Of a stretch of 39,106 nt of DNA, positions 34,199-39,106 are shown piece by piece. The DNA lies in contig JAFGAZ010000005.1 of NCBI GenBank assembly GCA_016933455.1, forward strand, positions 1-39,106, written 5' to 3'. Positions within the stretch are counted from its first letter, which is position 1; the number at the start of each line of letters is the position of its first letter. A program made the position numbers and the translations under genes. The notes beneath the pieces are model-generated. The model ran no database searches. It was not told the origin of the DNA and was given only the letters and a program-made list of their open reading frames with translations. This stretch comes from Candidatus Aenigmatarchaeota archaeon. GTDB lineage: Archaea; Aenigmatarchaeota; Aenigmatarchaeia; Aenigmatarchaeales; Aenigmatarchaeaceae.

Positions 34199-34576
34199 TC
34201 ACTTTGTCTTCCAGCTGCCGTGAACGCTGCAGTATTCTCTTGCTTGCACGTTTTCTGCCTTTATTTCAAACTCTGCTTCCGGCTTGTCTCCTGGTTTTAG
34301 GAATTTTTTGCAGCTTTTTCCATTGGCACTTACCTCTATCCATTCTATGTAGTGGTTTTCGTCCATGGGATGTTCGATTGAACCCACTTTCACTTTGGCT
34401 CCACTATTAGTTTTTTCTATAACCGGTATGTGCTTTTCTTTGCCTTGGTCCTCGGTTTTTTCCAACATGAGGTTCATGGGCTGACCGCAGCATACAAGAT
34501 CCCCTACACCTGCATGCAAAACTTCTGTTATGTTGCCGCATATGGCGCACTTGTACACTTGCTTTTGCATTGTCAT
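34199..34576 (-). CDS. Desulfoferrodoxin-type superoxide reductase
   Basis: [63 protein letters not shown]. Confidence 0.96.
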
Positions 34577-34577
34577 A

Positions 34578-35162
34578 TCAAAACTCCTCGCATTTAAGCT
34601 GATAGTAGCTTCTTGGATGGTCGCATGAAGGGCATTTCATCGGAGGCTCTTTTCCAAAGTGTGCATAGCCGCATTCCCTGCATATCCACCAAACTTCCTT
34701 GTCTTTCTTGAAGAAGGTGCCATCTTCTAGCTGCTTTAATATCTTCATGTACCTTTCTTCGTGGTGCTCTTCAGCTTTTGCTATGAATCTTAGCCTTGCT
34801 GCAATGTCTTGTAAGCCTTCTTTTTCAGCAATCTCTGCGAATTCAGGATACATCTTGGTGTGTTCGTGGTTCTCTCCTGCTATTGCTGACTTTAGATTTT
34901 CGATTGTTGTTCCTCTTGTTGTTGGAGCCGAAGCTTCGACTGTTATCTCGTCTAGCTTTTCACCACTCTTGGTCTTTAGCTGGTTTATCAGCTTGAAAAG
35001 CCAGCTGGCATGCTCTTTCTCGTTGTCTGCTGTTATCAGAAATATCTCTGCAATCTGCTCGTAGCCTTCCTTTTTTGCGATACTTGAGTAGAAGGTGTAT
35101 CTGTTTCTTGCCTGGCATTCTCCGATAAAAGCTTTTGTTAGATTTTTTATAGTTTCGTTCAT
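34578..35162 (-). CDS. Rubrerythrin
   Basis: [53 protein letters not shown]; rubredoxin domain [30 protein letters not shown]. Confidence 0.97.
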
Positions 35163-35232
35163 TTATTCACCTACCTAATTATCATAAGAAAATATAGAAT
35201 AATACTTGTCTTTCAGAGTTTTTATAATTTCT

Positions 35233-36327
35233 TTATAGCCATCCCATTAGCATAGCAATTCCCATTCCAAGCATCAGAAGGCCTGCCACCCAGTGAAGCT
35301 TCTTTAGGTTCTTTTCCCTCCAGCCGCCAATGTCCTCGACTGCCATGAAGCCAAAGTAAACTATTAGTGTTATTGCAATCATTGGCGATATGAAAACGCA
35401 CATGTATATCAACAGATACGGAATTGCTGTGATTAATGCCATTTCCGAAAGTATTCCACCTGCCACGAAATACGGTCCTCCTGTGCACGGCGTTAAAAAG
35501 AAGCTAACTATTAGACCCACTATAAAGGCTCCTCCAATGGAAGTTGTACCGTTTATTATCTCCTTCATCTTGGGCCTCCATCTCATCGGGACCTCCATTA
35601 TAAAGCCTCCTCCTCCGTACCATATGGCATCCTTGATGTTAAGCAATCCCATGAGTATGGCAAAGCCTGCCAACAGTTTGTAGAACCACATGCCGCTAAG
35701 CTGTGTAAAGCCCGTTACAAACTTGAAGCCTGTTATTAGAAGAATGCCGAAAAACAGGTACATGATAAATATGGCCGCGCTAAAAGAAAGGCCTGATTTC
35801 AAAGCCTTGTTTTTGTTTTTCGGAAACTTTGTAAGAATGGCCGTCATAAGTATCACAAGAACAGCCAGCTCGCAAGGGTTTATTGCATCAACCATTGCAA
35901 GGCTCAAAAGCTGAATTAGAGAAATATCGTCTGTTTCACTGTTTGTTTCTATTTTACTTAACGGATCTATGCAACCGTTTTCTACGCAGTTAGCTATTGC
36001 TTCTTCTATGAAAATTCCTGTATTGTCATAGTTGCCATAACCTACAAAGAACTCATCGCCTACGAATGTCATCGGCACGCCGCCTGCGCTTGTTCCGTAA
36101 GCTTGAGCCATGCTGTTGAATAACTGGGCACTTTCCTGGGAAGACACCTCTATGCTTTGCACTACCAAGTCAGCGTATTTTTCTTGCATGTCTTCGATAA
36201 AGGGCTTTTCAGCTGCGCAATGCGGGCAGCCATTGCCCCAGAAAAAATAAACAACGGTTTCCTCTGCATAAACAGAACTAATACTGACCAAAAGAATTAT
36301 GATTGTTAAAAAAACTAATCTTTTCAT
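35233..36327 (-). CDS. Thioredoxin-like domain fused to CcdA/DsbD-like TM domain
   Basis: TVVYFFWGNGCPHCAAEKPFIEDMQ; NPCELAVLVILMTAIL; FLTPCTGGPYFVAGGIL. Confidence 0.9.
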   Translation of the reverse strand: MKRLVFLTIIILLVSISSVYAEETVVYFFWGNGCPHCAAEKPFIEDMQEKYADLVVQSIEVSSQESAQLFNSMAQAYGTSAGGVPMTFVGDEFFVGYGNYDNTGIFIEEAIANCVENGCIDPLSKIETNSETDDISLIQLLSLAMVDAINPCELAVLVILMTAILTKFPKNKNKALKSGLSFSAAIFIMYLFFGILLITGFKFVTGFTQLSGMWFYKLLAGFAILMGLLNIKDAIWYGGGGFIMEVPMRWRPKMKEIINGTTSIGGAFIVGLIVSFFLTPCTGGPYFVAGGILSEMALITAIPYLLIYMCVFISPMIAITLIVYFGFMAVEDIGGWREKNLKKLHWVAGLLMLGMGIAMLMGWL

Positions 36328-36662
36328 TATAGGTAACCTTTTATCTTGGAATTTAGAACTTCGTAGGGCATAGCTCCTATTATCTTGTCAACTAATTTGC
36401 CTTCCTTAAAGACCAAGAGAGTTGGTATACTCATTACCTCGTATTTTCCCGGTATCATGCTGTTCTCATCTATATTAAGCTTCCCGAAAACTATCTTTCC
36501 TTTGTGCTCTTCTGCTAGCTGCTCTATCATAGGCGCTATCATCTTGCACGGCGGGCACCATTCCGCCCAGCAGTCTAGAATGAAAAGCGGGTATTTGCTT
36601 AGTTCTTTCTCAAAAGAAACGTCTGATACCTTTACTGCACCTTCTGGAAACTCCAAATCCAT
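36327..36662 (-). CDS. Thioredoxin
   Basis: LDCWAEWCPPCKMIAPMIEQLA...SIPTLLVFKEG. Confidence 0.94.
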   Translation of the reverse strand: MDLEFPEGAVKVSDVSFEKELSKYPLFILDCWAEWCPPCKMIAPMIEQLAEEHKGKIVFGKLNIDENSMIPGKYEVMSIPTLLVFKEGKLVDKIIGAMPYEVLNSKIKGYL

Positions 36663-36688: not shown

Positions 36689-36988
36689 TTAGCTTTTAAA
36701 AAGCTTATAATTGCCGCCCTCTATTCTTATGGCCTTGCCCTTTACTATTGCTTCTGAAACCTTTTTTCTTGCTGAACTAAGCAGCCTAAAAAAGGTGGGC
36801 TGTGAAATGTTCATTTTCTTGGCAGCGGTCTCTTGGTCGTTGCTTTCCATATCCTTTAGGCGAAGAGCCTCGAGCTCCTCGACTTTTAGGACAATTTCTT
36901 CCAACTCGACAACTGGTATGCCTGCTGGTTTGAAATAGGTTATGTCAGGTCTGAACCTGACATGCCTGCACATTCTCGGTCTTGGCAT
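36689..36988 (-). CDS. UPF0251/DUF134 predicted DNA-binding protein
   Basis: [25 protein letters not shown]...[62 protein letters not shown]. Confidence 0.95.
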
Positions 36989-37005
36989 AAACCTATTTCT
37001 TATTT

Positions 37006-37019
37006 TGAATATATATTTA
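37006..37019. promoter_or_regulatory. Degenerate TGAAT-N4-ATTCA site upstream of UPF0251 gene
   Basis: TGAATATATATTTA; one mismatch to the perfect sites at 37462 and 39085. Confidence 0.4.
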
Positions 37020-37262
37020 TTTCAGTTCTTCAAGTCTTTTCTCAATGTCTGCTAAATCCGCTTTGATTGCTTCTTTGTCAGCTTTGAGCATTTCTATTTC
37101 TTCTTCTTTTGTAGGTCTTCTATAGTCCCAGTATCCAGACCTTCTAAAGCCCATACCTCTTCCAAAGCCTCCGCCCCTTGCAAATCCTCTTCCGCAAGGT
37201 CCAAGACCCCTTCCTGTTAATGGACCTCTACCTTCCGGTCCTGTCCCGTCTCTAAATGGCAT
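37017..37262 (-). CDS. DUF5320 family protein
   Basis: [31 protein letters not shown]... then C-terminal coiled coil. Confidence 0.9.
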
Positions 37263-37263
37263 T

Positions 37264-37416
37264 TCATTTCACCTCCTTTTTATTTTGTTTGTATAAAACA
37301 CAATCTTCTGTACCACCCAATGGTCCTGTTCCGTTAAAACGCCCGCCTCCTAATCTTCTTCCATCTCTAGGGCCACAACGTCTTCCTCTTCTGCTTTCGT
37401 ATCCTTCATTCGTCAT
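37264..37416 (-). CDS. Small Gly/Arg-rich protein, DUF5320-like N-terminal part (50 aa)
   Basis: MTNEGYESRRGRRCGPRDGRRLGGGRFNGTGPLGGTEDCVLYKQNKKEVK; GGGAGG SD-like upstream; 1 nt before DUF5320 ATG; missed by ORF track length cutoff. Confidence 0.65.
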   Translation of the reverse strand: MTNEGYESRRGRRCGPRDGRRLGGGRFNGTGPLGGTEDCVLYKQNKKEVK

Positions 37417-37434
37417 CTAATCAACCTCCCTTTT

Positions 37435-37483
37435 AATGAATATCAATTCATTATACTATATTGAATATATATTCATTATAGTA
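37435..37483. promoter_or_regulatory. Two perfect TGAAT-N4-ATTCA palindromes, second within a 30-bp near-palindrome
   Basis: TGAATATCAATTCA (37437-37450) and TGAATATATATTCA (37462-37475); TACTATAT-TGAATATATATTCA-TTATAGTA spans 37454-37483; adjacent TATA-like CTTTAAATAC on minus strand. Confidence 0.65.
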
Positions 37484-37508
37484 TTTAAAGAAATACGTTT
37501 CGAAAAAA

Positions 37509-38375
37509 TCACATATCATGTATTTTTTCTATTATGTTGTTGAAAATTTTAGAATATTTTTTGTTTATCTTTGACACAGGCTTCATGCTCACAGTGGACT
37601 TTATGAAATCCTTCCTGTAAGGTATTTTTCCCAAAATCGGTATTTTTTTCTTTTTTGCAAAGTCCTCTATTTTCGAGCAGAATTTTTTGTCTATGTTGCA
37701 TTTGTTTATTACAATGCCACTGTCTATTTTGAAATGATCTGCCAAATACAAGACCCTTTTCATGTCATGAAGAGCGGAAGGTGTCGGCTCTGTGACAGCT
37801 ATTACAAAATCAGTCCCTGTTATGGAAGCTATGACAGGGCAGCCTATGCCTGCTGCAGAATCTATCAAAACAAAATCGTGTTTTTTCTTCGTGTCTATTT
37901 TTTGTGAATTCTTCCTAAGCTCTGCCACAACTTCACCGGAGGCGAGTTCTCCTAGCTTTAGCTCTCCCGATACAAGCAGGATTTTATAGTTTCTTCCTGT
38001 GTAAACAGAACCTATTATCTTTTTGGATTTTCCTATTGCATTGTTTGGACAAGAAACCATGCAGGCTCCGCAGCCTATGCAGACGTCCTTTACAAAAGCA
38101 GGATACCTGTTCTTTACAAAAACTATGGCGTTTTGCTTGCATACCAAAGCGCATTTTCCGCATTTGGTGCATTTTGAACGGTTCCATTTCGGTATCATTT
38201 GCTTTATGTCTTTGTACTTTTTTCTTTTAACATTCAAAAGAAGATGATCATTGGGACATTCTGCATCAGCATCAATAAGCATGGTTTTGGTTTTTTTCCC
38301 AAGTTCGACTGCCAAGGATGTGGCTACCATGGACTTGCCCACTCCGCCCTTGCCGCCTGTTACTGCTATAATCAT
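37509..38375 (-). CDS. MinD/Mrp-superfamily P-loop ATPase with inserted 2[4Fe-4S] ferredoxin domain
   Basis: MIIAVTGGKGGVGKSMVATSLAVEL; CTKCGKCALVCKQNAIVF...CIGCGACMVSCPNNAI; start moved to ATG at 38375 with upstream AGGTGTG. Confidence 0.95.
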   Translation of the reverse strand: MIIAVTGGKGGVGKSMVATSLAVELGKKTKTMLIDADAECPNDHLLLNVKRKKYKDIKQMIPKWNRSKCTKCGKCALVCKQNAIVFVKNRYPAFVKDVCIGCGACMVSCPNNAIGKSKKIIGSVYTGRNYKILLVSGELKLGELASGEVVAELRKNSQKIDTKKKHDFVLIDSAAGIGCPVIASITGTDFVIAVTEPTPSALHDMKRVLYLADHFKIDSGIVINKCNIDKKFCSKIEDFAKKKKIPILGKIPYRKDFIKSTVSMKPVSKINKKYSKIFNNIIEKIHDM

Positions 38376-38403
38376 ATTTTTCACACCTCTGATATGCAAT
38401 TTA

Positions 38404-38757
38404 TTAAGAATGCACCTTGCAAGAATCTTTCGGGTCTGCCCTTTTGATTTTCCCGTTTTTCCAAAATTCTATTGCTTCTTTTACGGTTTGAGAATTTGCA
38501 ACATAAACATCTATTCCCAAATCTTTGCACAAGGCAATTGCTCTTGGTCCTATGTCCCTGCATATCAGAATATCTGCTCCAATATTTTTTATGAATTCAG
38601 GAGGCATACCGAATCCTCCCTTGTGCTCGCTTTTGTTGTCTAATACCTTTATTTTACCATTTTTTTCATCAAACAGAGTGTATGTTTTGCATCTTCCGAA
38701 ATGCTCTGCTACCTTTTCTTCAAGACCCAGTTTGCCTTCTGTTGGTATTGCTATCAT
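38404..38757 (-). CDS. NifX/NifB C-terminal-like dinitrogenase iron-molybdenum cofactor family protein (COG1433)
   Basis: MIAIPTEGKLGLEEKVAEHFGRCKTYTLFDEKNGKIKVLDN...GADILICRDIGPRAIALCKDLGIDVYV. Confidence 0.94.
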   Translation of the reverse strand: MIAIPTEGKLGLEEKVAEHFGRCKTYTLFDEKNGKIKVLDNKSEHKGGFGMPPEFIKNIGADILICRDIGPRAIALCKDLGIDVYVANSQTVKEAIEFWKNGKIKRADPKDSCKVHS

Positions 38758-38758
38758 T

Positions 38759-39082
38759 CTATATCTCTTTTAGTTTGTTTTTTATGAAATCGTCAATAAC
38801 CTTGTCTACACTGCCTTTTCCTGTATAAATTTTAACTTTGAATTGCTTTAGAACAGCACAAGCTCTTGGTCCCAAATTTACAACAATCAAAGCTTCTATG
38901 CCTTTTTCCACCAAAGATTTTGCAGTTGATAATCCAGCTCCAGTGTTTTGCTGACTAGACAAATTATTTATTATATCCTTTTTTGTGATTTTGTTTTCTT
39001 TTATTTCTACCAATAAGAACTTTTCAGTTCTGCCAAAGAATTCGTTAACCTCTTTTTCTTTCAAAGGTATGGCCACTTTCAT
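38759..39082 (-). CDS. NifX-like family protein, second copy
   Basis: MKVAIPLKEKEVNEFFGRTEKFLLVEIKENKITKKD...LVEKGIEALIVVNLGPRACAVLKQFKVKIYTG. Confidence 0.9.
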   Translation of the reverse strand: MKVAIPLKEKEVNEFFGRTEKFLLVEIKENKITKKDIINNLSSQQNTGAGLSTAKSLVEKGIEALIVVNLGPRACAVLKQFKVKIYTGKGSVDKVIDDFIKNKLKEI

Positions 39083-39084
39083 AA

Positions 39085-39098
39085 TGAATAATTATTCA
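39085..39098. promoter_or_regulatory. Perfect palindrome TGAATAATTATTCA directly upstream of NifX-like gene
   Basis: TGAAT-AATT-ATTCA, 2 bp upstream of the start codon at 39082 (-). Confidence 0.6.
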
Positions 39099-39106
39099 AA
39101 ATACTA

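Follow-up and report, generated by a model that had tools for sequence, protein, structure and literature searches.

Conserved palindromes at a NifX/MinD locus of an Aenigmatarchaeota archaeon as probable operators of the DUF134 (UPF0251) family

The stretch of DNA considered here (39,106 nucleotides from a Candidatus Aenigmatarchaeota archaeon; hereafter the window) ends in a run of minus-strand genes which, read from 39082 downwards, encodes two NifX/ORP-domain proteins, a MinD/Mrp-like ATPase, a 50-aa reading frame, a DUF5320 protein and a DUF134/UPF0251 protein, and past these a thioredoxin, a DsbD-like protein, a rubrerythrin and a desulfoferrodoxin. The NifX/ORP-domain proteins (38759..39082, PF02579 E 2.4e-17, and 38404..38757, PF02579 E 5.5e-20) each match the C-terminal part of the MrpORP model, and the ATPase (37509..38375; PF01656, PF10609, PF00037), which carries two 4Fe-4S motifs, matches the model partially; together they make up an ORP/MrpORP-type gene set. 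MrpORP is an iron-sulfur biogenesis protein of Desulfovibrio (PMC6345978), and its equivalog cut-off is not reached by any of the three window proteins because the domains sit on separate proteins. The 50-aa reading frame (37264..37416) is without a match in a Pfam scan and is followed by the small DUF5320 protein (37017..37262, PF17253 E 2.1e-16) and by the 99-aa DUF134/UPF0251 regulator (36689..36988), whose match to PF02001 over residues 3-95 (E 2.8e-26; 92.4 bits against a cut-off of 27) places it within that family. PADLOC returned nothing for the DUF134, DUF5320 and 50-aa proteins. The four genes directly behind DUF134 (34199-36662) form an oxygen/redox-defence set, and no perfect TGAAT-N4-ATTCA palindrome was found among them.

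Three perfect TGAAT-N4-ATTCA palindromes and one site with a single mismatch lie within 2.1 kb at this locus, confirming the positions given for them in an earlier note on this DNA. The first, O1 (TGAATATATATTCA, 37462..37475; site conserved in relatives), stands just downstream of the TATA box that serves the 50-aa, DUF5320 and DUF134 genes (TTTAAATA, 37482..37489, minus strand), which starts 14 bp upstream of O1, at the distance most often seen in relatives. The same note had set this site in a near-perfect palindrome by a TATA box, and indeed O1 is the centre of a 32-bp near-palindrome (37453-37484) that is symmetric at 30 of its 32 positions. A reading in which TGAATATATATTCA would itself be the TATA box and the second palindrome would cover the start site was given up in view of the separate TTTAWA box upstream. 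O2 (37437..37450), also perfect, is the second site of the O1 promoter and falls in the expected 5' untranslated region, 25 bp from O1; equivalent pairs in relatives are 23-25 bp apart. Genus g24 (L096, L103, L114, L118, L120, L091) has paired sites that are 56 bp apart, centre to centre, rather than 23-25. O3 (TAAATATATATTCA, 37006..37019), the degenerate site, lies upstream of the DUF134 ATG with no TATA box in front of it and overlaps the DUF5320 stop, the codon TAA forming the first three bases of the site on the gene strand, an arrangement which recurs in G002 and G005. O4 (TGAATAATTATTCA, 39085..39098) is perfect and spans -16 to -3 relative to the ATG of the first NifX-like gene; its TATA box is out of view because the site adjoins the contig end (39106).

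Shuffling of the 39-kb window gave an expectation of 0.18 perfect sites, compared with the 3 found, and 3 was reached in none of 100 shuffles; similarly, none of 2000 first-order Markov copies of about 36989-39106 held more than one. The whole genome (694 kb) contains exactly three perfect sites, all of them at this locus, and no copy of the reversed control pattern. If the palindromes were chance matches in A+T-rich intergenic DNA, then a genome total of three would be near expectation, which is about 3 when the window shuffle is scaled up, and single copies do turn up by chance in relatives. The clustering of all three in one locus, unlike their genome total, is beyond chance, and the spacing and promoter position of the sites are fixed. 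We give the chance reading virtually no credence, since phylogenetic footprinting, described below, refutes it.

The DUF134 protein of the window has the recognition helix ISQPTFFR (S62, Q63, R68), and the confidence of its structure model is good (pLDDT 87.8). By sequence, the closest solved structure is the DNA-binding domain of DeoR (7bhy, E 2.5e-5), and the DeoR DNA-binding domain on its operator is likewise the top Foldseek match, with an rmsd of 0.7 over about 40 columns; no Foldseek E-value fell below 0.001, these values being weak because the DUF134 domain is short. The protein is thus predicted to contain a DeoR-like helix-turn-helix of the SorC/DeoR type.

DUF134 is present in 56 of the 156 genomes of the window's class. 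A search of this class for two palindromes separated by a spacer of 10, with at most two mismatches, matched 12 genomes, every one of which has DUF134, and in 10 of the 12 the pair lies near the DUF134 gene. Among the class loci read, most Q-type loci uncut by a contig end have a site upstream of DUF5320 or DUF134; the few cases of DUF5320 without DUF134 are at contig ends or weak, and one (G143, L227) bears paired sites. The wider sample comprised 80 named DUF134 loci (556 kb) from several DPANN phyla, Methanosarcinales, Methanomicrobia, Altiarchaeota, Patescibacteria, Deltaproteobacteria and Clostridia, and it holds 90 perfect sites compared with 2 for the reversed pattern; in the footprinting check that the earlier note proposed, the motif is thus conserved upstream of UPF0251 orthologues. 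The gene directly behind the site is most commonly DUF5320 (50 loci), with DUF134 itself in 18. An unbiased count of palindromes with 5-bp arms in 110 Q-helix loci ranked TGAAT with a gap of 4 first (68/110), the runner-up occurring in at most 11 loci once overlapping frames of the TGAAT palindrome were set aside. Of 186 SQ-type DUF134 genes, mostly SQPTF, 139 have a perfect TGAAT site in the 1.5 kb upstream of them, compared with none of 45 R-type genes over the same distance; some of the 47 SQ-type genes lacking one do so owing to a short contig or sequence stretch.

The position of the palindrome relative to the core promoter is also conserved. In archaea, about half of 182 sites have a TTTAWA box that begins 12-17 bp upstream, 14 bp being the most frequent distance (60/182), and the archaeal palindrome therefore falls behind the TATA box and ahead of the expected start. 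Many DUF134 genes carry one palindrome only, spanning -16 to -3, which fits a leaderless start. At DUF5320 promoters there is often another one 23-25 bp downstream of the first, still ahead of the ribosome-binding site. The deltaproteobacterial site comes after TTGACA and overlies the -10 region. Sites between TATA and start, or over the -10 region, usually block transcription. Since the operator holds the same blocking position in both promoter grammars, repression is the simplest reading, and a conserved operator that overlaps the core promoter of the gene's own regulator is the arrangement expected of an autoregulated repressor. DUF134 is, then, a likely repressor of the genes behind the palindrome. 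It may instead be that DUF134 binds the sites and activates, or that it is a metal-dependent switch with both roles, given that site position has been read from sequence only; the blocking positions found in both domains speak against this, and we consider it rather unlikely.

The strongest link between palindrome and protein comes from their joint variation. Across a covariation set of 257 distinct DUF134 proteins, the letters of the recognition helix and of the palindrome change together, with the N4 spacing and the place of the site constant. SQPTF and related helices pair with TGAAT, HQSTF with TGCAT-N4-ATGCA, archaeal SRPTF/SRTTF (SR[PT]TF) helices with TGAAC-N4-GTTCA, SRGTF with TGTGC, and deltaproteobacterial SRATF/SRPTF helices with TGAGC-N4-GCTTA. 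In the bacterial class, a perfect TGAAT site accompanies 24 of 25 Q-type genes, the remaining one having a single mismatch, compared with none of 28 R-type genes; all 28 of the latter have a TGAGC-N4-GCTTA-like palindrome at -23 to -27, matching 7 to 9 of the 10 template positions. Many of these Q- and R-type cases are paralogue pairs showing the operator switch, and because such pairs share one genome, genome-wide composition or another shared regulator is disfavoured as the cause. Two DUF134 paralogues per genome are common in this class (that of G157; L280-L351), the first a fusion of DUF134 to NifX (about 255 aa) behind a TGAAT operator, the second a stand-alone DUF134 (about 100 aa) behind a TGAGC operator. 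For residue 63 against arm position 5 the counts were 67 for Q with T, 6 for Q with another base, 1 for R with T and 30 for R with another base (Fisher p 5e-19, uncorrected for descent). On a tree from 89 columns R requires 4 changes and well-supported branches force only 1, so the covariation is partly confounded by descent. For the clostridial genes with an SRPTF helix (L150, L163, L200, L212), no clear N4 palindrome was seen near the start.

Many helix-turn-helix families read palindromes of this type and linkage alone is no proof of binding, so one could suppose that some other co-inherited regulator occupies the sites, with DUF134 as a mere neighbour. This seems improbable to us, since the operator letters track the recognition-helix residues of DUF134, even between paralogues of one genome, and the site goes with DUF134 from DPANN archaea to Deltaproteobacteria. 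We consider it probable that a recognition code applies, in which residue 62 would set arm position 3 and residue 63 arm position 5 of TGnnn-N4-nnnCA, and that DUF134 proteins in both domains are autoregulated repressors of NifX/ORP-type metal-cluster genes, their operator refitted to archaeal TATA and bacterial -10 promoters.

A more specific candidate for another regulator is the arginine repressor, in which case the palindromes would be ARG boxes. Their TGAAT arm and 14-bp core match the ARG box, whose half-site is near-identical. The pairing of sites is a further likeness, as E. coli ArgR binds two 18-bp boxes with 3 bp between them, their centres lying about 21 bp from each other (PMC6640053), compared with the 23-25 bp seen here. 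No Arg_repressor match was found in the window's own genome (89% complete), and the same search was positive in 9 of 14 control genomes. The sites, moreover, go with DUF134 and DUF5320 rather than with arginine genes, and their letters vary with the helix of DUF134, a protein of a different family. An ArgR-type regulator is accordingly a very improbable owner of these sites.

Turning to the extent of the regulon, the wider enrichment of the motif that had been proposed, upstream of Mo/Fe-S/redox genes, was not seen beyond the locus. Besides the three sites in the window's own genome, a complete Methanosarcinales genome gave three matches, only one of which has an A+T centre, and this is DUF134's own; the operator thus appears local and autoregulatory rather than spread over such genes. 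When one mismatch was allowed, the own genome gave 26 extra sites compared with 9 for the reversed control pattern. A wider regulon was not convincing from the two one-mismatch sites closest to O4: C20:23999, close to O4 in sequence, lies inside a gene, and C2:26137 precedes a long reading frame by 29 bp, with no clear TATA box there. The additional site pairs of G002 and G062 are not followed by any consistent gene. The regulon looks to consist of DUF5320 and DUF134 and, in the window, also NifX/MinD, where the NifX promoter site was seen in no other locus compared. In one genome of the class (G059, L088:5400-5413) an encapsulated-ferritin-like gene (EncFtn-like, PF22277) has a perfect TGAAT palindrome 6 bp upstream and may be an additional member.

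The neighbouring genes (NifX, MinD/ORP) and the DUF134-NifX fusions, which occur in Deltaproteobacteria, suggest that the system may respond to metal or Fe-S status. Peptoclostridium has the gene run DUF134-NifX-ATPase-ATPase-MrpORP. On a conjugative Klebsiella plasmid (NZ_CP034132.1, L458:4001-4757) a DUF134 gene with the helix SRQTL adjoins a NifB/NifX-family gene and has TTGCATATGCCA and TAGCATATGCCA just upstream; DUF134 is found in 180 plasmid records, mostly from Klebsiella and Citrobacter. About 70 of the 257 DUF134 proteins (L097, L358, L394, L401 and others) carry a C-terminal zinc-ribbon-like extension (CxCPxCG...CPxCG), and many archaeal DUF134 proteins have a C-terminal extension that holds two or more CxxC motifs; the window copy has no extension. 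Such an extension could possibly act as a metal or redox sensor.

Given that the site accompanies the protein across archaea and bacteria and varies with its helix, DUF134 very probably reads the palindrome, and we regard it as highly likely that the palindromes are DUF134 operators, bound by a DUF134 dimer which would repress its own genes and NifX-MinD. The earlier proposal that UPF0251 binds TGAATNNNNATTCA and controls its own cluster is therefore strongly supported by conservation, promoter position and helix-operator covariation; a genome-wide regulon is not supported. We infer the following sequence of events. A DUF134 dimer with a DeoR/sigma-region-4-like helix-turn-helix would place each recognition helix on one TGAAT arm, Q63 specifying arm position 5. 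On O1, between TATA box and transcription start, the dimer would block recruitment of RNA polymerase or opening of the promoter, and binding would be strengthened by another dimer at O2, some 25 bp further downstream. Occupancy of O1 and O2 would repress the 50-aa, DUF5320 and DUF134 genes, amounting to autoregulation, and occupancy of O4 would repress the NifX-MinD genes, until, as we propose, the ORP/NifX-type machinery for metal or Fe-S clusters sends a signal that relieves repression.

A family of unknown function with a wide distribution, from DPANN archaea through Clostridia to Klebsiella plasmids, DUF134/UPF0251 gains from these data a probable DNA target, a likely mode of action, candidate target genes and a prediction at the level of single residues, together with an example of one operator used in archaeal and bacterial promoter grammar alike. 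Among the papers of an open full-text library, we found none on the function or operator of DUF134, UPF0251 or COG1342, and none that contains the sequence TGAATATATATTCA.

The closest structural comparison is with DeoR of B. subtilis (SorC/DeoR subfamily), a repressor acting at the dra operator (PDB 7bhy, 8r7y), whose operator has the form ATTGAA...TTCAAT, with the left half-operator ATTGAACAAAATTTCAAT (PMC11229326). This half-operator and the DUF134 palindrome share TGAA-N6-TTCA, and the recognition helices are alike (ISRPTVSR in DeoR, ISQPTFFR in DUF134). In DeoR, R34 and R39 contact T12 and G4/T14 (PMC11229326), although these contacts are tentative because the structure is at 3.7 A. On alignment, Q63 and R68 of DUF134 take the places of these two arginines, which are five residues apart, and both the alignment and this spacing suggest that the residues are equivalent; T12 corresponds to arm position 5 of the second arm, the base that varies among DUF134 palindromes. 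DUF134 differs in having Q in place of R34, with T rather than C or A at arm position 5, and in having its own N- and C-terminal parts without the sugar-phosphate effector domain of DeoR, which Pfam scans found neither in the 99-residue window protein nor in longer DUF134 proteins.

In terms of target genes, the likeness is to the orp operons of Desulfovibrio vulgaris, which encode MinD-like ATPases with ferredoxin motifs and ORP/NifX-domain proteins (PMC6345978) and are controlled by sigma54 with DVU2106 and IHF. DVU2106, too, is a palindrome-binding protein that represses its own gene (PMC3897727). Through DUF134, the ORP/NifX metal-cluster machinery of anaerobes, itself poorly understood, would come under a non-sigma54 regulator, unlike in Desulfovibrio: there the regulator is a sigma54 activator, whereas here it would be a small DUF134 protein with a different operator, acting at archaeal promoters.
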